Notes under the pieces: generated by a model
What the model was told of the DNA's origin: nothing
Database searches by the model: none
Seen by the model: the letters and a program-made list of their open reading frames with translations, nothing else
In this document: one piece after another, positions 1 to 23,919 of the stretch
Layout of the letters: every line of letters begins with the position of its first letter
Position numbering within the stretch: the stretch's first letter is position 1
Assembly: GCA_001687465.1 (NCBI GenBank)
Contig: LVLI01000297.1
Coordinates: 1-23,951, forward strand
Length of the DNA: 23,951 nucleotides
Origin: Halocafeteria seosinensis
Taxonomy: Eukaryota; Sar; Bigyra; Bicosoecida
Direction: 5' to 3'
Made by a program: the position numbers and the translations under genes

Positions 1-2754
1 GGGTACATACTCAAATGTGCGTGCTGCAAAGAATAGAAAGAACGGGGAAGAAGTGGCTGTCAAGCTCATGAAGAAACCATTGCTGAAAAATGACCGGAAG
101 TTCGTGGATACGGTCCTGGATGAGATCAAAGTGCTCAAGCAGGTATGTTCCGAGCCTTCTACACATTATTCCCCCTACAATTTTGCATTCCACACTCGCT
201 GATATCGATGCCAGTTGGATGAAGCAGTGGAAGGAGTGGGCGTACTTCAGGTTCGAGCGTGCTATTATGAAGAGGGACGCGTAGCTATCGTTACCCAGCG
301 TTGTAGAGGAGGGGATATGTTTGATATGTACGTGATGTGTGTTCTATCGACTGCTCGATGGCGACTAACAGTGGTGACTAAGTGCATTTGTACGTGGACT
401 ACGTTCTGCAGGATTCTTGGCATGGCAGAGCAAGGCAAAAGCTACAGTGAGAAAGAATGCGCCCGGGTATTCAACAACCTCTTCTTGATACTGAACAGAA
501 TCCACAAGAAGGGGCTGTTGCTGCACAATGATCTCAAACATGAGAACTTTCTATTGGAGGAATTTCATCCAGAGTCGAAGATTGTGGTCGCTGATTTCGG
601 CTTCGCTACCGTACGTGACCTCTGCTGGTGGAAATACTCGTGTTATTTGTATTTTTTTGAGACTTCTTTGTTGTGCTTGTCTGGCCAGCCTCTGCCCCGT
701 GACAACATTCAAAAGGAAATAAGAGGCCAACGCAACGGGACATGGGGTTACATGGCTCCGGGTATGTGAACTGATGCATGGTTATTCGTCGGCAAGATAT
801 TGATTGACATATCCTGTCTCATTGCAACCCAGAGCTGATAGACAAAAATGTGCATTCTGTAAAGACGGATTGCTGGGCCATGGGAGTAGCTTTATACATA
901 GCTTTAAAGGCGGCTCTTCCATTTAATCCGGAGAGGGTTCGGGTACGTAACACTATGTATCATTATGGAAGTATTGTGGCTTATCTGACGGGACGGCTTT
1001 GTGAGAGCAGAGGCACGGTTCGTCGGCTATTATGAAAACGCGTTTGAGACTCGAAGATCCAAAAGGTATTGGTATGAGTCGCGATGCAGCTGTACGTCAT
1101 CCATACGGCGCTTCATTGCAATGCATAGCGTGGACCCGTGAGCATGCAATCACGACACATTTCGCGATTCACAGGATTTGTTAAGTCACTTGTTGTGCTT
1201 CAATGCGTATGAACGATTTGACACGGACAAAGCTTTGGCTCACCCATTCCTTAGCGAATGGAGGCGTCAAAATGCTACGGAGCTTACTTCGCTACTTCCA
1301 GAATTGAAGAAATTTCGCATGCGCCAGAAGTTCCGAGTGAGTACTTCTTTTGTAGAACTTTGAACTCTTACTTTTCTAGACACTTCTTGTACCCTGCTTA
1401 CTACAGGCTGCGTGCCATGCTGTTGAAGCAGGATCGTACTTCAATCGTTGCGGTATACTTAGGTCTATCGTGAAGGAGCAGCAACTACCGGCAATGCAGT
1501 TCGAAAAGCTGCGTGAAGTGTTTAGCAAATACTGCAGCGCAAGTGCTGGAGTCAACCGGTAAGAGAGATAGGCTGCGCCTGCCCTTGAAAGTGTTGTTAC
1601 TGTTTTTTATATCCTCTGGCAGTACAAGGCAGCGTTTCTCCGCGGATCTAAAGTCGTTCAGCCGCATAATGGAGGAATTAGGACTGAGTCAGTTGCCGGT
1701 TCAGCGAGTTTTTGAAGTTTTCGACACAGGTGCGGATTTGATGTGCTATCGTCTAGAACTCCAATCCTCCCTTCTTAACAGTGATATTGATTTACAGATC
1801 GAGACGGGAAAGTCGATTTCCAAGAGTTTATGTGTGGGCTGGCATTGCTTCAAGGTCCATCGGAAAATGGTCTGAAAAGTGGGTGCCGCTGTTGAAACCG
1901 ATTGTCTCCCTCTATATGTATGAGTTGTTTCACGAGGTAACTGCAGCCTGCTTCTCAATATTCGATCAAGATGGGAATGGCTTGTTGGATCCGTACGAAC
2001 TTATGAGTATCTTGGAGCTTTCATCTACTGGAGACAAACGCAGAGATGTCGATTTGGCCAATACACTCGAAGAAATGATGGATAAGATTGATATCGATGG
2101 TACGCTTGGAGTCAGAAAAGTTATGTATCTTAGTGTTAAATATGCTGGCTGAAGCTGCTTACAGGAGATGGATATATCACTTTCGAGGAATTCCGGAATG
2201 GTGTAAAAGACTACCCGCTCCTCGCAAACTCCCTATTGGGGCAAATTCAGGGAGCAGTCTCCGCAAGTGGACGGAACTTGTTTGCCAGGAATCACTCAGT
2301 TGGACAAGGTTCTTCCAAGCACCTTAAGAAAGCAATAGTGATAGTTCCATCCGGATCCGAAAGATCGATTCAGGAGCAACTGGAAGATTTTGGGATTGAT
2401 TCAGAGCTCAGAGATCCGTCTTCGTTGAGCGAAACGGACAATACGCTGGCCAACGTTAGGAGCTCCGGCGTGAATGCAATTCTTGTCGGGATTGATGGCG
2501 GTTCTGTCGAGCTACCGCGGAGAGTAGCTTCTGAAAGCGACCTTCCTGTTGTTGCTTTCCCATGGAATGCGGAAAGTATGGAATCCAATGAAATTAAAGA
2601 TCTATTTTGGAATACTGCCCAAAGTGATGCCGGTGATGCGCTATCAATGACTGTCTCCTCGAAACACGCGGCTGAATGCGCTGCCCGTATCTGTAATTCG
2701 CGTGCAGAAGTGGAGCTTTCTCTCAGCGCATCCCAAACAGAGAGCAGCAACTAG
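1..2754 (+). CDS. CaMK/CDPK-type protein kinase with EF-hands and PurE-like tail (paralogue A, 5'-partial)
   Basis: Predicted calcium-regulated Ser/Thr kinase; the 5' end lies outside the window. Exons: <1-142, 215-327, 412-610, 689-761, 833-942, 1011-1091, 1175-1336, 1407-1558, 1623-1729, 1798-1878, 1947-2099, 2165-2754 (reading frame starts at base 2; 653 codons present). Visible in order: end of the Gly loop (GTYSNV), VAVK lysine, catalytic HNDLKHEN (in place of HRDLKPEN), DFG, MAPE, then a basic helix KFRAACHAVEAGSYF like CaMK autoinhibitory/calmodulin-binding segments. Three canonical EF loops follow: DTDRDGKVDFQE, DQDGNGLLDPYE, DIDGDGYITFEE. The segment where CDPKs usually have a fourth EF-hand is degenerate. 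About nt 2326-2705 encode a PurE-like alpha/beta domain (IVIVPSGSE, ILVGIDGGS, ELPRR, LPVVAFPW, AAECAARI). Exon joins were checked by frame and by alignment with B and C. Kinase and EF-hand assignment is secure; the tail assignment is inference. Confidence 0.9.
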
Positions 2755-3128: not shown

Positions 3129-5641
3129 ATGTCCCGCGACGGTGGTGGTGGTGTCCCGTTCGGTAGACAGGCGCTACGAATTCGAAGCGTCATGAACGCC
3201 GACGATATCTATTCGTTGACGGAGGACGAGAAAAATCTGTTCGTCCTGGATTCTTCCTTAGAAGACAACTATGAGCTCAGGGAGGAGCTCGGCTCGTACG
3301 TAGGCTATACGGTGCATGGGATGAGCTTGAGGAATCACATGAACTACCTGGTAGCTGATCCCACACAGAGGAGCGTTCGGCGCGATTCGGGCTGCCGTAG
3401 ATCGCAGGACGGGAACCGAGGTAGCCGTGAAAATAATGAAACAAAGGCTATTGCGCTACAATTCGCGTCTCGTGCGCGTGATCCTCGATGAAGTGAAAGT
3501 CATGAAGCATGTAAGTACCGGTCTCACTCTTTCCTGTATGGAATGCGCCGGGCGAATCCCCATGCGATCCCTCGTGATTTCTTCACATGCTTCCATTTGC
3601 ACTCCCATGATGCCACAGCTCGCCGACACAATGGGCCAGACGGGAGTTCTCAGTCTCATTGAAGCCTTCTATGACCAGGGAGGAGTAGCTGTCGTCATGC
3701 CGAAATGCACGGGCGGCGACTTGTTTGACCGGTAAGCACCTCAACGGATCTATTCAGCTTCGCAGACTTCAGTCAGAACTCCTGGTGATACGAACGCGTT
3801 ATGGCTGCAGCATAGTGGAACTAGCTGAGACGAATGACAAGTACACTGAGCAAGATTGCGCACGACTGTTCAATATTCTGTTCCAACTTGTCTCTTCCGT
3901 ACACAAGAACGCGAAACTCCTGCATAACGATCTGAAACATGAACATTTCATGTTGCAATACCCGGACAATGAATCGAAATTTCTTATTGCAGATTTTGGA
4001 TATGCTTCAGTAAGTTTTTTTCGTGCCGCTGTTATACTGTATGTTAGCGACGAGTGGTTTCCAGCACTTACCCGCGAGCGGAATCAATGGAGAGCTTAAA
4101 GGTACTAAGCCGTCAGGGACACATGCGTATATGGCACCAGGTATGAAATTGTGAAGCATCAAAGGACTGAATATGTATCTAGCATCCAATTTGGTTTGGC
4201 AGAAATCTTTGAAAGATTTGTTTACTCCGTGAAATCGGAAGCTTGGGCCATGGGAGTGGCTTTGTACATCGCGCTCAAAGCGCGATTCCCGTTCCAACCA
4301 TCTCAAATCAAGGTTTGATAGTTTAAGGAACGTCTTTCATGCTTTGACCAAATTTAGAAATATATGCTTTTGAAAGCGCTACAGGATTACGGTTTAAAGG
4401 CGATAAAGACTAGTGCCGCAAGTATTCATCGCGGAACTGACTTGGCTGGTTTGAGTGAAGATGCAGCAGTACGTGCACTTTAGCTAAGTATGCCCTTAGC
4501 GATTCCCTTATCTATCCATTTGTTCTTCAGGATCTCATTCGCAAACTACTTGAGTTGGACCCGGAAAAGAGATATGATGCAGAGGATGCACTAGACCATC
4601 CCTTCCTCAAGCGGTGGAGAGCGCAAAATTCTGCTGACCTTGACCTAATCCCGCAGTTGGAACGCTTCCGAGTTCGTCATAAATTTCGAGTACGTAAACG
4701 ACTATTCGTTTAGGAAGCTTAATTGGAAGTAACTCGCTCGATACACGTACAGTGTGCTTGCAGGGCTGTTGAAGCAGGATCGTATATGAACCGCTGTGCT
4801 TTGCTGAAGGCGATCATACTGAACAATGCCCCGGAGAACTCTGAAATTCCATCTATTCAGGTAGACAGAATCCGTCAAATGTTCTCCAGGCATTGCAAAT
4901 GGACGCGACAACCGACTTCCGGCAGGTATGTTAATTCAGGATATCCTGAAACTGCGGACATATGTGGATACAACGTTTGCAAACAGGTGGCAAATGCTGG
5001 TGAGCTTGGAGGCGTTCAAGAAAGTTATGACAGATCTTGAGCTTCAGCACCTACCGTTAGAACGGATGTTTGCCGTTTTTGACTCTAGTAAGTATGAATA
5101 CAAGTACCAATGGTATATTCTCGGATAAATTCATTACTTCGGTTCAGATGGCGACGGAGTAGTTGACTTTCAAGAGTTCCTGTGTGGTTTAACTCTACTG
5201 AACGGCGTAAATATGGAGACTTTACGCTGTACGTACGCACCGTTAGAGCACTCACTGCTTGCAACGCATCTACAGTGTATGCTTTCCTTCTTTCCAGGTT
5301 GTTTCGATATTTTTGACCACGATGGGAACGGCGTGTTGGATCCAAATGAATTGATGAACATTCTGGAACTGGTTGCCACAGGAGATGAGCTGACGGATGA
5401 GGCTCTTGTTATGAATCTTCAAGTCATGATGGATGAAATTGACATCGACGGTATGTATCCCGATCGGGATTTTCAGGTTGTTCCGAAGAAGAATCATTCG
5501 AATGCCGCAGGAGATGGCTACATCACCTTCGAGGAATTCCGAAAGGGGGTGCGAAAATTTCCTGTGTTGGCTAATGCTCTGTTGGGAGAAGTTCAGGGCG
5601 CTCTTTCAGCCACCGAGCAGCACCTATTCGGAAGCGGATAA
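3129..5641 (+). CDS. CaMK/CDPK-type protein kinase with EF-hands, no tail domain (paralogue B)
   Basis: Exons: 3129-3295, 3369-3510, 3619-3731, 3811-4009, 4065-4140, 4203-4312, 4385-4468, 4531-4689, 4753-4925, 4987-5087, 5148-5228, 5298-5450, 5511-5641 (562 aa). An internal ATG at 3192 (MNADDIYSLTEDEKN, 541 aa) aligns better with the start of paralogue C and may be the real start. Features: Gly loop GSGAFG restored across intron 1, VAVK, HNDLKHEHF, ADFG, MAPE. The junction helix KFRCACRAVEAGSYM follows, then EF loops DSNGDGVVDFQE, DHDGNGVLDPNE and DIDGDGYITFEE. The Mg2+-coordinating Asn of the catalytic loop is His here (codon 3944-3946), whereas A and C keep Asn, so catalysis may be weakened. 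The protein stops about 30 residues after the last EF loop, where A and C continue into the PurE-like domain. It is convergent with the next gene, 60 bp away. Confidence 0.9.
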
Positions 5642-5701: not shown

Positions 5702-8480
5702 TTACGCCTCAGCTTTTGCATCTTTCAGTTCGGTTCTTAATTTGTTATGTTCCCTTTCTAGCCATTTTTCCCGCTCCTCCAGTTTCTCCAAACGACTCTT
5801 CACCTCTCGTTTTCGTACGTCAACCTTATCACGTAGCAGTTGGATCTGAGAGTTTAGAATAGAGAGAATCAAATAGCAACCGCCGCAGTCAGCAGCGTCT
5901 GTGCACACGTACATTTATCCGAGAATTTCTTGCCTCCTCCTCAGGAATTGTACCATTTTGTTCTTTGCTATGAAGCTCCTTTTCCAACTCCTCAATCTGC
6001 AACGAACAGAGCGCAGCTTTATCTCTTGAGACGTTCCAATAAGATGTGCACGCTAACGACATTACCTTCTGTTCCTCTTCGTGGATATCCTTGAAATCCT
6101 CTTCAGCCTCCTTAAATTCCCCTTGAAGTTGTAGCCGAATAGTGCGATATTCCAGAAACTTTCGCGCGAACTTATCCTTGTCCACGAGATGTTGTACCGC
6201 CGCACGCAGCAAAGATCGGATGCGCACAACGGGATCCAGCTCTGTAACTTCGTGCGCCTCACTTGGAGCTGAATCAGATTGGCCACTGATTGACTCCTCA
6301 CATCCCGGTAAAGAGCAGTACATCTTCGCGGGTTCAATCAACTGAGCAGCAAGGAGCAACTGTACATACGGTTGAACAAACGCAACGTCTCCTTTCCGCG
6401 GGGCCTTCTCGCTGACGGACTGCAGAAGGTTTGAATACTTGAACCTTAAATTATTCTTACTTTGACGATACGGTAGACCTGTGCGAGTGAAAATATGGTC
6501 CTTTAACATTTGTGGAAACCGCCAATCGAAGCGCACACACACATAAAAGCACATACCTGTAGGGCCCACGGAATCGGAAAGATTAGCAAGGGTACATAGC
6601 GTATGAAATGCCGTCACGGAAAATGCAGCGATCTCACTATTTGCAGGAAGGGAGCTTTTCGGGACGGGCTCAGCTTTACCGTCCACGGACATATGGATTC
6701 GACGTAAGTCACTTAGTACCTCAACATCGGACGACAGATCGACTGAGGGGACATGCAGGAAATCAGCTACTGAGGCCGAAACACAATCCACAATTTCTTC
6801 TAAAGCCCTCTCGGAGGCCTTAGTGACGTGATCTTTAACTAGGTCGACGGTATCCTTTTCCAGTGTAGGATGCCTGTTTTCTTTTGCCAGTTCTTCAGCC
6901 ATGTTGGATAGATGTCTATCAAATCTTTTCAGCCAAGCTGCGATATCGGCGGTCCGGGTTCCGCAAGTTTCCCGTACCAAACTAACGATAGAATCAATGA
7001 ACTGCTTGTCCAAGCAAGCCGTGTGCCCAGAGAGTTTCTCGAACTGGTTACTTCCATATGCATTGATGGTATCGAAAAGCGCCTCGAAACGAGTATTCTT
7101 ATGCACAAAACTTAAATCGATAACCGTTGCCCACTTCTGCCGTTCCACACCCCGTAGAAGGGGTTGCTCTGGTCCATCAAGCACAAAGTGTACCAAATTC
7201 GCTCTATTCTTCTGGAGCGATGTCGAACTGACTTGGCGCAGAGCTGCATCAACAAGAGCAGCAGCCGATAGGTTAGAGCTAGTTTCGTTGAAATGCACTA
7301 AATCCGATACCACGCCTTCTAACACGGTCGGATTATCGCTAACAACGAACTTGGAGGAGCTAGAGTGGGTATCCAGTCGTTCTCTCAACCGATGAAGATG
7401 ATCTGTAGTGCAGACCACGAGCGTTGGTTTCGCGTGAGCTTCTCCGGATTTACTTCGCTCGACGAGTTTATCCAAGGCCTCAATGTACACACGAGCAACA
7501 TAAATGGCATTCAAGGACAGTAACGTGCGATGTAAGTAGTTCGCTGAAGAGATATCTGTTGAGTTGTAGCTCTGGCGGACAGTGTTGATATAGGCCCTTG
7601 CTTCGGGAATCCACAGAACGGCATAGACCGCTCGCAGCAGTCGGTGTAGTGGGGAGCAAACGGCAGGTACGACTACAGTTCGCGATTCCATTTTGCTCAC
7701 TGAAGGAATTTCTACGACATGACGATTCCGCTTTCTCAGTTCGGCAATGGCATTGTTTTTGAATGCTCGACGACCACTTCCAGGGAGTCCTTGCACTCGG
7801 ACCGCTTTGGTTTCTTCTACCACTGCAGATGTTACAGAGCTTTGTGCCGTTGTTTCCCCGTTCTCACGTTGTTCGTTCTCTGAAGGGCCAGGAGCTTCTT
7901 GTTGTTCAGTAGCACTCTTGATTTCCTCGGAGACGTTCAGCGCCCGGAGAACTTCGCTCATTTGACGGCTTTGAGCTTGGTGAATGAAGTTCCTCACCAA
8001 GTCGGGGACGAAAAAGTGTTCTTCGGCTACCGAAACAGCTACTCGATGGCCTCTATCGGCAACTTGAGTGACGTCGTTCGAGTACATATAGTACGATCCG
8101 CCCACCACAGATGCCAAAGCCCCTACCGTCATTCCAACAAGAGAGCCTTTGCCTCGACTTTTACCCTTCTTATTATGTTCAGAGGTGCCATTGCCATCAT
8201 TATTGGAAGTGTTTTCGGTCCCAGACGAAGCTGTAGTTTCAGCTTTTCCCTCAGATTGCACCCCTTTCGAGGCTGTCTCGGTTGACATACACCTCCATGA
8301 AGAACTATGCAAAGTACCACATGCAAGTTCTGATTGATTACCGCGTTTTAAAGTCGAAAACGGAGCCGTATGGACTTTAATACGCCTCGAATTCGCCCCA
8401 AGCCCACTGCCATATCTTAGGTTCCTCCGAGCAAACGACACCTTTTCCACTGTTACCCTTCTCATCATCGTGTCAGACAC
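5702..8480 (-). CDS. Predicted mitochondrial membrane protein with degenerate P-loop and C-terminal coiled coil
   Basis: Exons on the minus strand: 8480-6557, 6478-6066, 5996-5913, 5845-5702 (854 aa). The first 60 residues are Arg/Ser-rich and lack acidic runs, like a mitochondrial presequence. A polar Ser/Thr/Gly-rich linker precedes one membrane span at about residues 113-133 (SLVGMTVGALASVVGGSYY). Residues 231-240 read GLPGSGRRAF, a Walker A-like loop in which Lys is replaced by Arg. A hydrophobic strand LVVCTTD near 354-360 could be the Walker B position. From about residue 730 the protein is charged and heptad-like. This coiled coil continues smoothly across the last two introns, which supports them. 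The layout recalls membrane-anchored inner-membrane proteins such as Yme2/RNA12 (P-loop) or Mic60 (span plus coiled coil), but I see no diagnostic motif of either. The first two introns (78 and 69 nt) are in frame without stops, so an unspliced reading is also open. Confidence 0.7.
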
Positions 8481-8857
8481 CTTCTTACCTAGCTAGGCAG
8501 TCATTCAAGCGGTACCCCAAGTGTATAGAACATGTGTCAACAAACGTAAATGGACGTAAACTTCTTCTGCTCGGGTTTTTGAAGCGCTGGACGCTTTTCC
8601 GCACAAACTTCAAGTTGGAATCCGAACTTCCGAAGTGACTTGTTTGCGGGAAGTGCAAACTGCTGTTGGTCTGGAACAAGGCAAAGTGGCTACTTTCTGA
8701 TTACCGAACATAGTGAATTTATATCATGCGTTTATTCATACATATATACACGTGATTAATTACGGTATGGTAGCACTAGAACGCTAATATATGTACCAGC
8801 TACTGTATGTTATCTCACACTGCACTATTAAGCGACGCCAAACGAATTCAGTAGAGC
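8481..8857. other. Intergenic spacer between the P-loop protein and the U-box gene
   Basis: Both flanking genes are on the minus strand, so this is the upstream region of the 5702-8480 gene and the 3' flank of the U-box gene. About 8700-8800 is markedly AT-rich, which fits a 3' UTR or promoter. No ORF here is convincing. Confidence 0.4.
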
Positions 8858-9862
8858 TCACGTCCGAGAGCTGGAGTCTCCACATTTGAGACCTTCTTTA
8901 ACTTTTTTCTGTTGTTGGTGTATCCATGACCATAGTTCGCTCCGCAGTCCGTTGTTGCGGACAACCTGCATCGAGGGAAGAAGGTTATTTGTCAATGGGG
9001 AGGTAGGCTTGACTTTCAACCAACGCCTGGCTACGTCGAACTCGTAATTGTATCCATCACTCAGCGTAACAGGATCTCTCATTACTTCGAACGTAACTGG
9101 ACAAACTAAGCACCCGGGACATTCTTCCTCAATGTTGCAGCCTTGATCTCGCAGCTCTTCAATGGCGTTTTCCAGTTGCTCTTCGTCTTCATGTTGTGGT
9201 CCAACTACTCGGATTAGTAGTCCCTGCTGGACTTCGTTCGGGCGATTCCGTTCGTGCCAGTGGGGTCTCCGTTCGTGTCGGTAGACTCTATCCCTGGGAG
9301 TACTGCTGGAAAATAATGTTGCTGCACCGTCAGGGGGATTTCGAAAGAAGATTCGAGGATGGGGATTTCTGTTTCCCGGTGTCGCAAAAGTGTCCCCCAG
9401 TTCAGCAATGTGGCAATTTTCCAAGGTGGTCCTGGCTCTATCACCATTGTTTTGATGAGGAGAAGACCCATCGGCTTGGTTTGCCGAAAGGTGGTGAGGT
9501 GTGTTCGTTGCGACTGGTCGCTGGCGTTGACCAAGTTGGCAACCATTGAAGCCTCTAGGAAGGCATTGACATTCCGGATCTGTTGCTCTTATGCTCGATC
9601 CACGTTGCTGGTGAGTTTGGAGCTGGTTTTGGATTGTCTGCATCTTGTGGGGATGTCGATGTAGCAAACGCATTTCTTCGAGCGTATAATCCATTGCATG
9701 CCGTATGCGTACTTCCTGATATTCTGATCTAGGCTGATGAACACGACATGGACGTTGTGCTATCTGGTACCATTTAATTCCATGGATGTCCTCCGTATTC
9801 CCAACCGACTCTGCGGGTGTGTGTGTTGCACAAGACAGAGGGAACATACTGCCGGCACTCAT
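8858..9862 (-). CDS. U-box domain protein, probable E3 ubiquitin ligase
   Basis: Single-exon gene of 334 aa. Residues about 254-313 form a U-box: CPVTFEVMRDPVTLSDGYNY, then WLK, a TSPLTN turn, the LLPSMQVVRN loop, and an ending NGLRSELWSWI. In this family the domain recruits an E2 ubiquitin-conjugating enzyme through a zinc-free RING-like fold. Just upstream lies an acidic helix (HEDEEQLENAIEELRDQ). The N-terminal 200 residues are rich in His, Gln, Arg and Pro without a recognisable substrate-binding domain; no ARM, WD40 or TPR repeats are seen. The substrate therefore cannot be guessed. The start used is the first ATG of the open frame; the low-complexity N-terminus makes it less certain than the C-terminal domain. 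Confidence 0.85.
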   Translation of the reverse strand: MSAGSMFPLSCATHTPAESVGNTEDIHGIKWYQIAQRPCRVHQPRSEYQEVRIRHAMDYTLEEMRLLHRHPHKMQTIQNQLQTHQQRGSSIRATDPECQCLPRGFNGCQLGQRQRPVATNTPHHLSANQADGSSPHQNNGDRARTTLENCHIAELGDTFATPGNRNPHPRIFFRNPPDGAATLFSSSTPRDRVYRHERRPHWHERNRPNEVQQGLLIRVVGPQHEDEEQLENAIEELRDQGCNIEEECPGCLVCPVTFEVMRDPVTLSDGYNYEFDVARRWLKVKPTSPLTNNLLPSMQVVRNNGLRSELWSWIHQQQKKVKEGLKCGDSSSRT

Positions 9863-10236
9863 GATCGATGTAGTTGTTGTAGATTGGTACTACTAATTCA
9901 GAAGCTACCACACTTTCTCCCTCTTATAAACGTTCAATAGCTCAACATCTGTATCAATTCATACACATGTGACTATCTACCTACAAAGCAGCAATGTAAA
10001 GCAAGATAATTCTTTACGGACTCCGCTTCACAAGCACAATCCGTGCCAAGAACAGTTCATGATGAACTCTTAGGAAACTTAGTGGCCCCTAACAGGAAGA
10101 ATTTGACGAATCGGGCAGTATGTAATCATTTCTCTCACAAACGGGAGCTAGAAACAGGCAATCTCAGTCTGGATAGAGAATCATCATGTCGTCAAGGTAC
10201 CCACTGACACGGAACCAGGCAGTATGGTACCATGCC
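9863..10236. other. Intergenic spacer between the U-box gene and kinase C
   Basis: This holds the 3' flank of kinase C and the upstream region of the U-box gene, both minus strand. I see no gene, tRNA or repeat. Short ORFs overlapping 10164-10500 are antisense shadows of the last exon of kinase C. Confidence 0.4.
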
Positions 10237-13192
10237 CTAGGCAGAAGAGGTGGATTCCTCTGCCATGGAAAGTTCAAATTCATTGCGCGTGTTACAGATG
10301 CGGGCTGCCGCTTCAGCTGCATGAGCTGCAGACCACACCAAACATGGCGGGTCAGAGGGGTCCGCTTGAGCAGCGTGGCAAAAGACTGTTTGTAGCTCAT
10401 CTGGGGAAGTACCCGGGGCTAAGCACGGGAAAGCGACCACAGGAAGATCTGTCAGTCCAGCTACGCTTCGGGGAAGCTCCGCGTAAGTGGAAGTAAAGCA
10501 AACTATCACAACGTGAAACCCCGTTGCTCGAGCGCTCCGGAGGGAAAGCTGCATCTCAGAAGCGCGCTTTGACGCCATGGTAACTCCAAAATCAGCTAGC
10601 ACGTGCTGACAAGAATTCATCTTTGACGAATCCGCATCATCCGGCAGTATGAACAGCGCACGCTTTACCCCAAAGCATGCGACAGAGGTGCTGGCCGGAA
10701 TATCATCCGGGTGCTGATCTTTCACATACAACCGCCGTCCGCTGGTAGACACAGACGCCTGCACGTCTCCAAGCAAGACATTGGCTAGCAAAGGATACTC
10801 TTGGACGCCGTTCCGGAATTCATCGAACGTAATATACCCGTCACCTGAATTGAGCGAGAATGGTAATGTAAAGCGAATAAAGTCGATAGGGTACTCCGTC
10901 TCTAATTTCTCGCTCGACGTACCGTTGATGTCGATTTCGTCCATAACGCTATCCAGGTCTGCCGCCACTTCGCGATCTCGTGCATGGTTACCTGAAGACG
11001 CAAATTCAAGTATGCTGGTAAGCTCCTCGGCATCAAGGAATCCATTACTGTCAGTATCGAAAATATCAAAGCACACTGCAAGGATAAATCAACGATGAAG
11101 TCGACCATGGCGGTTGGAGGTTTCAGTTACGAAACAAGTACGAATAATTAATACACGCTATGATAATGAAGCAAAACCTCTTACACTTAAGTGTCCGCTC
11201 TGAAGGACCATGCAACAAGGCTAGGCCACAAATGAATTCTTGGAAATCCACAGTGCCATCCCCATCTGCGTACTCAGCTAACAGTCAATTATGCCCCCGT
11301 TTATCACTCTACCAAGGACCAGATCAGCATACCAGAGTCAAATACAGTGAAAAGTCGATCAATAGGTAGATGACCAAGATCTAATTCCTTCATCACTTCG
11401 ATAAACGATTCCCGAGACACGCTGAAACGGGACCTTTGACTGCATATCACTCCATTTTTTTTGGGTTTTTTTTTTTCATATGAGTCTCAGGTCAAATAGT
11501 ACATAACGGAAGCACTTACTTGGTGGTAACGTTATTCGAGCGATACTGGCAGTGCCTATTGAAAATTCCTCGCAATTTTTCAAAATGCATCGGTGGGAAG
11601 TCTTTTTCGGGAATCATTGATTTCAAAATCCCGAGCCGATTCAAAAACGCCCCGCCCTCAATTGCTCGACAGGCACCCTGTTCAGTTGAAGGAATTTTCA
11701 TTTTGTGTCCTTGCGCAAAGACGAAATATACAGCTTACGCGAAATTTCTGTCGAGCTTGGAAGCGCCTCAAGGCGGGTTCTAAGCTCGATAACTCGGCAG
11801 GGTTTTGCTCCCTCCACTTCCGCAGAAACGGGTGCTGCAAGGCCTGGTCTGCGTCGAACCTTTCACTTGGTTCAATTTTTAAGAGCTTGTCAATAAGGTC
11901 CTGAGTCCAAACAGATTGTGCACCGTGTCCGTTGATTTATAGCCACAATCTGTTAAATTCAGAACTTACAGCGGCATCCTCCCCAACAGTTAGATTCTTT
12001 CGAAGGATGCGCTTTGCACGGTAAATCTCCCGAACACCATATTTCTGCGTACTAAGGAATAAAGTCTAATCCTATATTCTATCAGGAAAGTTGTCAATGC
12101 TTCAACTCACTCGAACATTGGTAGGGTTGAAAGGTAGAGCGGCCTGGAGCATGATATACAGTCCTACCCCCATCGCCCAGCAATCCGTTTTAACCGATTG
12201 AACATGCCGTTCCAAAATCTCTGAATCACCATTTGCGCATTTGCGAGTTAAGCGTTAAACGCACAATTTCTGGTGGAGCAACGGATTCAAAAACTCATAC
12301 CTGGCGCCATGTATCCCCAAGTTCCTTCCCGCGGGCCCCTCATTTCTTTGAAAATGTTCTCTTGAGGAAGGTACTGGACCCAAGATAGACAACTATACAC
12401 TAGAAACAATAAAATGAAAGTGACAGACGTGAACATCGTACCTTCGCCATCCCAAAGTCTCCAATGATGATACCAGCGTCCTCACTGTTACTTGTCCACA
12501 GGAAGTTTTCATGCTTCAGGTCATTGTGAATAACTTTTCCTTGCTTATGCATCCTACTCAAGGTCGTAAAAAGATGATGAAACATTCGTGCACACTCCTT
12601 CTCGCTGTATTTGTCCTGTTGCCGATTCAGTTCGTAGATTCTGTTACGACCAGGAAAGCATTGTTTCAGTTCTCTTAGAAACAATGGATCTGCCAAGGCA
12701 TTACTCACTTATCAAAGATGTTTCCTCCATCGCAGTATTGTGTCAGTATGAATACACGTCCTTCGTTGTAATAGCAATTTACCAGCTGCAACATCCCTGT
12801 TGAATCAGTGCTATTCTTGAGCTGCAACGGAGACAAGCCGAGATATCACCCGTCCGAAAGCGAGAGTCGATAATTGCGCTTCTTCTTACATGCTTAAGAA
12901 CGCGAATTTCATGGAGCACCTGCTGTGTGAATAAAGGTGTGTCCGCACTCAAGGGTTGCTTTAAACACTTGACAGCCACTTTTTGGCCTGTTTGGCGATG
13001 GGTTGCCAAGTACACATTGGAAAACTTGCCTCTGTGGAGCAGAGCAGCAAGCCGAATAATCAAACTACCTCCCCAAAATAAGTTTCTGGAGACTTACTTG
13101 CCGAGAAAATTGGAGAGCTCATAATCCTCATCCACGCGTTTATACACGAAAAGCTCCCGATCCCGCGGCGATAAGACCTCGTCTTTGCTCAT
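10237..13192 (-). CDS. CaMK/CDPK-type protein kinase with EF-hands and PurE-like tail (paralogue C, complete)
   Basis: Exons, minus strand: 13192-13098, 13031-12890, 12821-12709, 12640-12442, 12373-12301, 12220-12111, 12044-11970, 11900-11739, 11677-11520, 11439-11333, 11265-11185, 11075-10923, 10844-10237 (691 aa). It is the only complete tailed paralogue in the window. Gly loop GKGKFSNV (31-38), VAVK Lys53, HNDLKHEN (155-162), DFG (178-180), MAPE (205-208). CaM-type junction helix KFRGACRAIEGGAFL follows (about 321-335). EF loops: DSDGDGTVDFQE (410-421), DTDSNGFLDAEE (445-456), DINGDGYITFDE (487-498). The segment where CDPKs have their first EF-hand is degenerate. Residues about 550-673 are the PurE-like domain (RALFILPDDAD, HVVIVCF, ELPRS, DLPVVAFP, AAHAAEAAARI). 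It is more eroded than in A: the Gly-rich loop is gone. Ca2+ binding by the EF-hands presumably relieves autoinhibition, as in related kinases; the tail's role is unknown. Confidence 0.92.
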
Positions 13193-13847
13193 CTTTTTCA
13201 CTCGTTTATTGGCATGCATGAATGGTGTTCGACACCGGAGGACGTGTGCCGTCCGACGGGCTTTACAACAAGGGTAATAGGCACTGGAATGACGCTTCGT
13301 AAAGTATCAAACAACCCTTCAGAATGCAGTGAGTCAACAGATATGGTTTGTTTGCTTTGCTACGACACACGTCAATCTTTTCTACCGACTCGCCTTTCTG
13401 GGAATTCAGCAAGCATGGAGTTCGACGTTGCTTGTGTGCATGGAATGAGCTTGACTTGCTACGGGGACGCACGTATACGCCGAGTTTGATGCTTATAATT
13501 GAATGCTTTATTTCGATGCACACAGTCGGAAAATGGTACAATTGTATCTTGGAATCCTGTTCTTCGGACATGTCGTGTAATCCGTGTTCAGCGGTCCCCA
13601 ATGATGTAGAAAGCGTCGCTTACAAGTTTACCGTAAGCACGCTGTGTTCTGTCGGTCGGTTCTTCCTTCCATATACGAAGGCTGAGTTTAGTGAATTCCA
13701 CGAAGACTGCTCAACTTCGCTCGCAAGTTGAAGTTGGCACAGTCTAGGCTGTACATGCACTGCTGTACAGAGACGATTTTATCACTGCAATTGTCCGTGT
13801 TTACACGACTACAAGCCAGTGTGCGCCTGTTCATCCAATTAGGGACC
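13193..13847. other. Divergent intergenic region between kinase C and the 2OG oxygenase
   Basis: This 655-bp region separates two divergently transcribed genes and probably carries both promoters. Short ORFs on both strands show no family resemblance and no good splice continuation into the oxygenase. I identify no specific regulatory motif. Confidence 0.4.
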
Positions 13848-15265
13848 ATGGATCGAACAGAAATCCCGGTTGTGAATATTGCCGCGCTCACGGGGACTTC
13901 CAGCGGAGGAGAATCGTACACATCGCAACAGAAGCAATGCACCGCTGAAGAGATAGGACGCGCATGCGATGAAGTGGGGTTTTTCTATGTGATGGGTCAT
14001 GGCGTGGATCCGAACTTATTGAAAACGCTGTTCCAACAAGGGCGAGACTTTTTTGCCAAGCCAGTGGAGTACAAGGATGGAATCTCTATGCACAACAGTA
14101 ATGTATTTCGCGGCTATTTCAGACTCGGGGATGAATTGACCAATAAAAAACCAGACTGGAAGGTTAGCTCTTTCGTCATCACTCCCTTGGATCAGCAACT
14201 ACTACCCTTCCTTCATTTTGGGATTGAATGGTGCAGGAAGGGTTATATTTCGAGCGGGAGCTTTCTGAACAACATCCTGATGTGAAAGCTGGGATACCCA
14301 TGCATGGACGAAATCAGGTATGCTTGAGATATACCATTTCTTGTTCTCTATTCCCAGGGAACGTTGATTCCGGACGAGGGACTGCAGTTTCCCAGCGAGG
14401 AAGACTTTCCCGGAATGAAGCAAACTGTATTGGACTACATGTCTGCGATGACAAAGCTGGGGCATCAAATCATGACCGGTGCGTCCATTCAAAGATGTTT
14501 GGGCATGCCAAAAATGCGTGATTCTTGTTATGCTGTAAATGCAGGAGTGTCTCTCAGCTTGGGACTACCCGAGAATTTCTTCAAGGATAGATTCACTGAC
14601 GATCCATTTACACCGTTTCGACTGTTTCACTACCCAGCTCAAAGTTGTCAAACCAATGACGAAGAAAAACCGTGGGGAGTTGGAGAGCATACTGATTATG
14701 GTGTATTAACGATATTAGCTACCGATGACGACGGGTTGGAAGTGAAGCTGCGCAATGGAAATTGGGTAACGGCGCCTTACATTCCTAATGCGTTTATTGT
14801 AAATAGTAAGGAACTTCCCAGGCAGCACGTGCCAGTCGTTGGTGTAGATAATGATTGAAACTTCTGGAATCTATTGTGGTTTCTCTGTTTGCAGTTGGAG
14901 ATATGCTTGAGATATGGACGAACGGTAAATACAAGGCGACTCCTCATCGAGTACGTAGTACTTCTCAGAGGAATCGTCTCTCGGCTCCGTTCTTCTTCGA
15001 TCCTAACTTTCATTGTATCGTGGAACCGCTGGAAGGATTGGGCCCCTCGTCTGTCTTTCGAAGTGAGGATGCGGCAGATTGCCAGAACACTGTAGACACC
15101 GGCGTTTCGGAAGATGCAAAGTATAGTCCTTCCCAAGCCCAAGCTGCTGTCAATGCATACCGCTTGGGAAACCCGCACATAAAAATTCGATATGGGGATT
15201 ACATACTGAACAAGGTTTTGACGGTATTTCCTCAGCTGTCCAAAAATGCTCTTCAAGATTGGTGA
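13848..15265 (+). CDS. 2-oxoglutarate/Fe(II)-dependent oxygenase, isopenicillin-N-synthase-like family
   Basis: Exons: 13848-14162, 14237-14317, 14358-14478, 14545-14805, 14895-15265 (382 aa). The N-terminal DIOX_N-type region reads IPVVNIAAL then GRACDEVGFFYVMGHGV. The C-terminal double-stranded beta-helix carries the iron ligands H221 and D223 (GEHTDYGVLT) and H277 (KATPHRV), and the 2-oxoglutarate-binding RxS motif R287-S289 (RLSAPFF). All catalytic residues of the family are present, so an active soluble enzyme is expected. The substrate cannot be read from the sequence: relatives act on hormones, flavonoids, peptides and other small molecules. Intron 2 is only 40 nt. Intron 3 (66 nt) is in frame and stopless, but its removal gives the family-like SLGLPENFF context. 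The ITPase gene begins 77 bp downstream on the same strand. Confidence 0.92.
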
Positions 15266-23399: not shown

Positions 23400-23651
23400 C
23401 TAGCATTTGCGCTTTGGCACCCGAAGCATAACATCACCACGAGGGGTGGTCATCACGTCCACATGCCCATATTGAGCCCAATAGTAGGGTAATTGTCTCA
23501 TGTATCGGGATGACTGTAACGCCTGGGTGAGGGTCCACACCTCCCCTTTGTCTGCCCCCACAAGCGGCACGCTGTACGCCCCCCTTGGTGTCCCCTTCGA
23601 GACGTCCCTAGTTATGGGGTCTCGCCCGTTCCCCACGAGGGACGTTGGAGC
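23400..23651 (-). CDS. Doubtful 3' exon of an unknown minus-strand gene
   Basis: The open frame ends in a coherent, evenly composed C-terminus (QLPYYWAQYGHVDVMTTPR, then GDVMLRVPKRKC). No in-frame ATG starts it; upstream the frame runs past a GTG to a stop near 23675, with an AG that could be a splice acceptor. It overlaps the Ser/Pro-rich plus-strand ORF, and at most one of them is likely to be coding. Family unknown. Confidence 0.25.
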   Translation of the reverse strand, partial: APTSLVGNGRDPITRDVSKGTPRGAYSVPLVGADKGEVWTLTQALQSSRYMRQLPYYWAQYGHVDVMTTPRGDVMLRVPKRKC

Positions 23652-23919
23652 AGAAGATGAAGCAGATTGTTTCTATCCGACTCCTTCACCATCTCCCACT
23701 CCTACTTCTAGTGGAAGCCAAACTCCCACTGCGTCACACTCCATGTCTCCGTCTTCAACATCTTCCCCCTCATGGACAACATCATCGACGCCCAGCAGTT
23801 CTTGCAGTAGCACACCTTCCCCCTCTTCCACTGCAAGTCCAAGTCCGTCGAAATCAGTTAAACCCAGAGTCCAGAAGCCAAATGTGCCCTACCAGAGAGG
23901 GAAACGCAGAATAAGATAA
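23500..23919 (+). CDS. Doubtful Ser/Pro/Thr-rich ORF
   Basis: A 139-codon plus-strand ORF. From about residue 59 it is a low-complexity run of Ser, Pro and Thr (PTPSPSPTPTSSGSQTPTAS and onward), ending in a basic tail (QKPNVPYQRGKRRIR). Such composition occurs in cell-wall or extracellular glycoproteins, but here there is no signal peptide in view. The antisense strand is also open for much of its length with a Gly/Glu/Val-rich frame. Which strand is used cannot be decided. Confidence 0.25.
   Translation: MYRDDCNAWVRVHTSPLSAPTSGTLYAPLGVPFETSLVMGSRPFPTRDVGAEDEADCFYPTPSPSPTPTSSGSQTPTASHSMSPSSTSSPSWTTSSTPSSSCSSTPSPSSTASPSPSKSVKPRVQKPNVPYQRGKRRIR

Follow-up and report, generated by a model that had tools for sequence, protein, structure and literature searches.

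CaMKII is a calcium-regulated kinase whose C-terminal hub domain, of NTF2-like fold, assembles the holoenzyme. PurE, the N5-CAIR mutase of purine synthesis, is described as an octamer in a section of PMC11451730, and PAICS, the animal SAICAR synthetase-AIR carboxylase, is likewise described as an octamer in a section of PMC9376930, where an active-site histidine (His303 in human PAICS) is also presented as universal in class I and class II PurE. We read His303 of PAICS as the histidine of the SAHR motif. Here we describe a locus in which two EF-hand protein kinases end in a PurE-like tail.

The window analysed, that is, the whole stretch of 23,951 nucleotides, is contig C212 of the Halocafeteria seosinensis genome (30.6 Mb, 605 contigs); the species is a salt-loving bicosoecid flagellate. 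Six P2X-receptor pieces, of which one exceeds the cut-off, occur in this genome, a loose fit to the 13 such genes reported in PMC5447177, a paper that also reports five calcium-dependent kinase genes raised 2.2- to 20-fold at high salt. Three related EF-hand kinase genes were modelled in it, A and B on the forward strand and C on the reverse strand. Introns of the three models, at predicted splice sites, are all GT-AG and 55-109 bases long, and the models contain no internal stops. The features are as follows:

2-2099, forward strand: gene A, exons 1-11, kinase domain and EF-hands, with predicted splice sites (exons at 2-142, 215-327, 412-610, 689-761, 833-942, 1011-1091, 1175-1336, 1407-1558, 1623-1729, 1798-1878 and 1947-2099)
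2165-2754, forward strand: last exon of gene A; a single open frame, closed by TAG, covers the second half of the final EF-hand, a linker and the PurE-like tail
2323-2751, forward strand: PurE-like tail domain of A, 143 aa
3129-5641, forward strand: gene B, tail-less paralogue, 13 exons, 562 aa, ending 17 residues past FPVLANALLG
10237-13192, reverse strand: gene C, tail-bearing full-length paralogue, 13 exons, 691 aa; the transcript-derived protein P0001 starts 9 residues further upstream
10240-10716, reverse strand: PurE-like tail domain of C, 159 aa including linker, Pfam AIRC 33.8 bits (E 2.9e-8)

Elsewhere in the window, an open frame at 8858-9889 (reverse strand) contains a U-box domain (48.6 bits) and is likely a ubiquitin ligase, and two open frames at 13695-14855 (forward strand) with DIOX_N and 2OG-FeII_Oxy matches likely form a 2-oxoglutarate-dependent dioxygenase gene. 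No Pfam match at E 0.01 was obtained for an open frame of 867 residues at 5892-8492 (reverse strand), nor for a low-complexity, Ser/Thr/Pro-rich open frame at 23488-23916 (forward strand).

The model of gene A comprises 12 exons and 11 GT-AG introns, with its 5' end missing at the contig start, and this spliced model places the last exon at exactly the coordinates proposed in the first-pass annotation. Pfam recognises a kinase domain (Pkinase) at 149 bits in protein A and at 178 bits in protein C, together with three EF-hand_1 stretches in each. An open frame at 2140-2754 (forward strand) includes the final part of the last EF-hand (DGYITFEEFRNGVKDYPLLANSLLG...), passes unbroken into about 125 residues of PurE-like sequence and closes with the TAG at 2752-2754; in gene C, the open frame at 11088-10237 (reverse strand) likewise continues from EF-hand into tail without interruption. 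With EF-hand and tail read in a single frame in A as in C, the link between them is independent of predicted splicing. The link from kinase to EF-hands rests on predicted splices and is supported in C by P0001 through exon 11. Base composition says little about a recent transfer of the tail: G+C content of body and tail is 0.473 versus 0.488 in A and 0.471 versus 0.548 in C, and third-position G+C is 0.502 versus 0.444 in A and 0.513 versus 0.506 in C.

P0001 follows the gene C model through exon 11 and ends within an intron that is retained ahead of the tail. This intron 11 (window 11184-11076), kept in the transcript-derived protein, cuts C off before the tail. Gene B is covered by P0003, also transcript-derived, which differs from the model at two residues and retains the last intron; this intron 12 (5451-5510) adds 20 residues within the last EF-hand loop. 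The intron retention in B and C transcripts could be either unspliced RNA or regulated retention. No transcript across the tail was found for C or A, and no transcript-derived protein was seen for A. A further transcript-derived protein, P0002, corresponds to another kinase gene, on contig C142. All three proteins (P0001-P0003) bear GECG01, the prefix of the H. seosinensis transcriptome.

The tail is missing from three paralogues, namely B, the C142 gene (ending ...RRLFGNE, stop) and a gene on contig C582 (ending ...RNLFGNQ, stop), so the kinase family can do without it. VAVK, DFG and APE, which we take together with the catalytic loop to be kinase motifs, are present in A and C, where the loop reads HNDLKHEN, and their presence makes A and C likely active kinases; the three EF-hands of each suggest calcium control. 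In B (window 3811-4009) and C142 (P0002) the catalytic loop reads HNDLKHEH, with His in place of the usual Asn that A and C keep, and the kinases of the tail-less clade may be inactive or otherwise altered. A tree built from the kinase part unites B, C142 and C582 as a clade (support 1.0); C582 is partial in this tree and the three outgroup proteins were taken from the 120 listed homologues. The outgroups adjoin C (support 0.758), and the tree thus fits either a gain of the tail in the ancestor of A and C or an earlier gain followed by loss in the B clade.

We searched 5.8 billion proteins with an alignment of the A and C last exons, and five proteins were returned at E <=10 among 4241 candidates. 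The top two, the metagenome proteins P0121 (E 1.1e-45) and P0122 (E 8.5e-45), are 59% identical to tail A and 43% identical to tail C, respectively, and the next three, P0123 and P0124 (near E 6.5e-5) and P0125 (E 0.31), have intact PurE motifs. P0122 starts with MVNALLGDVQSSVSASGRRLYV, the sequence found in C just past the last EF-hand; the junction is thus conserved in another source and the fusion is no assembly accident. An assembly chimera, or a separate gene for the tail, was ruled out by the single open frame in A and in C together with this same junction in P0122. Searching with the C tail as part of the full protein left no match at E 0.001 among 2261 candidates, and none of 200 stretches on viral contigs that fit a pattern was confirmed. 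The first-pass annotation knew of no described CaMK or CDPK with such a tail, and no kinase-PurE fusion was found in the open-licence papers searched; PF00731 is absent from the 120 homologues listed of 235. By domain architecture, we regard the tail-bearing proteins as a variant of EF-hand kinases.

The excised tails score above the Pfam AIRC cut-off of 30 bits (A, 33.7 bits, E 3.1e-8; C, 33.8 bits), and the whole proteins fall slightly below it (28.9 and 29.4 bits). Across NCBIfam the best family is purE (A, E 4.8e-8; C, E 3.5e-7), at scores of 32.7 and 29.8 bits that are far from its equivalog cut-off of 149.6 bits. The best PDB match of tail A is PurE (1o4v, E 3e-5). A profile of the four tails (A, C, P0121 and P0122) matches a 28-row PurE profile with probability 97.1 (E 4.9e-11), and when it was compared with the PDB, PurE chains ranked first (1o4v, E 1.8e-8), with human PAICS 265-390 at E 0.0013. 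The 28 rows comprise 26 of 80 PurE loci plus P0124 and P0125; P0123, a near copy of P0124, was omitted. Scored singly against this PurE profile, A and C reach 24.6 bits each and P0121 21.7 bits, where 1000 shuffles of each sequence (of which 797 to 862 obtained a score; 844 for A) reached at most 9.6, 6.6 and 5.9 bits, whilst P0122, at 6.3 bits, lies barely above its best shuffle of 5.7. The AIRC scores of P0121 and P0122 (23.1 and 20.6 bits) are under the cut-off. Chance is excluded as the source of the likeness between tail A and PurE.

The AF2 model of tail C (pLDDT 85.6, pTM 0.79) has PurE 3kuu as its best Foldseek match (E 1.9e-7), and the best structural matches of the AlphaFold tail models are PurE and PAICS, with the tail model matching PAICS residues 266-400; 28 of the 32 rows of the AF2 input alignments were PurE, and this fold match is therefore not independent of the sequence match. 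Foldseek superpositions on PurE have, in most rows, an rmsd of about 7-11 Å over some 150-168 columns, as compared to about 2.6-3.5 Å over some 125-129 residues. The high rmsd over the longer span suggests that the long last helix of the modelled tails is placed differently than in PurE.

Taken together, sequence comparison indicates that the tails are a domain homologous to PurE (AIR carboxylase). The first-pass annotation had claimed a PurE domain fused to the C-terminus of an EF-hand kinase, and this is borne out by the profiles, the profile-profile comparison, the fold models and the relatives; the motif pairings it listed between tail A and PurE were recovered in the alignments, and the fold search it proposed as a check, performed on the AF2 models with Foldseek and VIA, gave the PurE/PAICS fold with no unrelated family on top.

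We then compared the four tails with PurE column by column, where a PurE-conserved column is one shared by at least 89% of the 28 PurE sequences. Only 9 of the 56 such columns are identical in all four tails, and the GSxSD, SAHR and GAGGAAH loops are eroded. Within the 15 columns of the GSxSD, SAHRxP and AGGAAH loops, a single one, the SAHR Ser, persists throughout the four tails, and eight are lost in every tail, both His columns among them. The catalytic His column holds L, N, M and E in A, P0121, C and P0122, respectively; P0122 has two His residues a few positions upstream of this column, where the loop alignment is doubtful. In the phosphate loop GSxSD, Gly is replaced by Pro in all four tails, the first and the second Ser are each found in one of four, and Asp is found in three. 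Outside the loops, L24, G56, A75, L80-P81-V82, P86 and A123 (P0124 numbering) are unchanged in every tail. At five columns the four tails share a new residue (V4A, G9P, G84A, V85F and N122H, P0124 numbering), which points to a single origin and a new constraint. Where the last helix begins, the four tails share a strongly conserved segment, HAAE..ARICN, that is unlike PurE. The PurE stretch GxDSLLSIVQMPxG is heavily changed, and octamer contacts may thus be lost.

We also searched the genome, an intron-rich draft assembly, exon by exon for the purine-pathway families PurC, PurD, PurH, PurK, PurM/PurL, PurE and PurA. No match to PurC (PF01259), PurD or PurH was found in the 30.6 Mb genome, and the same searches were positive in 14/14, 13/14 and 12/14 control genomes, respectively. 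For PurK, the two ATP-grasp matches were identified as biotin-dependent carboxylases, one of which contains acetyl-CoA carboxylase domains, and for PurM/PurL the AIRS_C matches proved to be SelD. PF00731 matches only tails A and C, and no canonical PurE was recognised elsewhere in the 30.6 Mb by this search. As a positive control, PurA, which is also needed for salvage, was recovered from a single locus, in seven pieces, when searched for exon by exon in the same way. The absence of recognised purine-synthesis families is strong but not final. With six families (PurC, PurD, PurH, PurK, PurM/L and canonical PurE) unrecognised and PurA found, Halocafeteria probably performs no de novo purine synthesis, the pathway probably having been lost. 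The tail is then unlikely to serve de novo synthesis or to respond to intermediates of that pathway, barring a ligand taken up with food.

We propose, at what we judge to be even chances, that the tail is a PurE pseudoenzyme, domesticated and without catalysis, which would act as a scaffold bringing kinase chains together in oligomers. With the active site stripped and core positions kept, a structural role is the best explanation, and because PurE and PAICS both form octamers, a hub that clusters kinases is the simplest inference, weakened by the changed DSLLSIVQMP stretch. Oligomerisation had also been suggested in the first-pass annotation, and it is the reading we prefer. A PurE domain would have entered an ancestral kinase gene in a single event, before the split of A and C; with no purine pathway left to serve, the domain would have been retained for self-association, and calcium binding to the EF-hands would activate kinases held in the oligomer. 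A more specific version, which we offer only tentatively, is that the CaMKII plan has been reinvented, in that purine synthesis was lost and a catalysis-stripped PurE domain became an octameric hub clustering EF-hand kinases.

Other roles for the tail were weighed against this scaffold. A tail that still works as an N5-CAIR mutase or AIR carboxylase tethered to the kinase might be read from the matches to both Pfam AIRC and NCBIfam purE, but no tail has a His at the catalytic column, the NCBIfam equivalog cut-off is missed by far and no pathway partners are recognised; the missing catalytic residues and the unrecognised pathway together lead us to reject an active PurE. The first-pass annotation had inferred that the kinase may sense a nucleotide-like ligand through this domain. 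A tail that binds a phosphorylated small molecule, such as a nucleotide or sugar phosphate, and so tunes the kinase would have precedent, since PurE binds a ribonucleotide (structure titles 1d7a and 2nsj) and the 3opq entry is, by its title, a crystal of octameric PurE whose central channel contains fructose-6-phosphate, and the Ser of SAHR is matched by Ser in all four tails. However, the phosphate and base loops are degraded, with 1 of the 15 active-site columns kept in all four, and the purine pathway that would make the cognate ligand is not recognised in the genome. Nucleotide sensing is thus not supported, given the eroded loops, the catalytic His absent from 4/4 tails and the unrecognised families of the ligand-making pathway, and we regard the broader role as ligand sensor as rather unlikely.

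A docking or autoregulatory role, in which the tail would bind the kinase/EF-hand part or a partner protein without oligomerising, we likewise consider improbable. The HAAE..ARICN segment, conserved but unlike PurE, could be a new interface for such a module; no partner is known, however, and on present evidence docking is indistinguishable from a hub. That the tail is a functionless relic, drifting since an accidental fusion, appears very improbable: it diverges faster than the kinase, A and C being identical at 56/148 positions (38%) in the tail and at 139/263 (53%) in the kinase domain, and three paralogues lack it, but both tails have stayed open for more than 140 codons with fold-forming positions retained, new residues are common to the four tails, and related tails occur in other sources.

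Compared with class I PurE (N5-CAIR mutase; PF00731 AIRC, TIGR01162), the tails share the domain family and the predicted fold, but they lack the catalytic His and the active-site loops, they are fused to a kinase, and no purine pathway is recognised in their genome. As in PAICS, an N-terminal partner precedes the AIRc domain; here, however, this partner is an EF-hand kinase and not SAICAR synthetase, whose domain is absent from the A and C chains (Pfam finds kinase and EF-hands), and the AIRc domain looks inactive from its residues. Like CDPKs and other EF-hand protein kinases, A and C combine a kinase domain with C-terminal EF-hands in a single chain, and unlike them they carry a PurE tail. 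Were the scaffold reading true, a housekeeping enzyme domain would plainly have outlived its pathway within a signalling protein. Should the tail be a hub, evolution would have found two separate ways of clustering calcium-activated kinases, through C-terminal domains unrelated to each other, and the one described here would reuse a metabolic enzyme. The likeness to CaMKII is one of working only: the fold of the hub differs, and A and C would oligomerise through a PurE-like domain.
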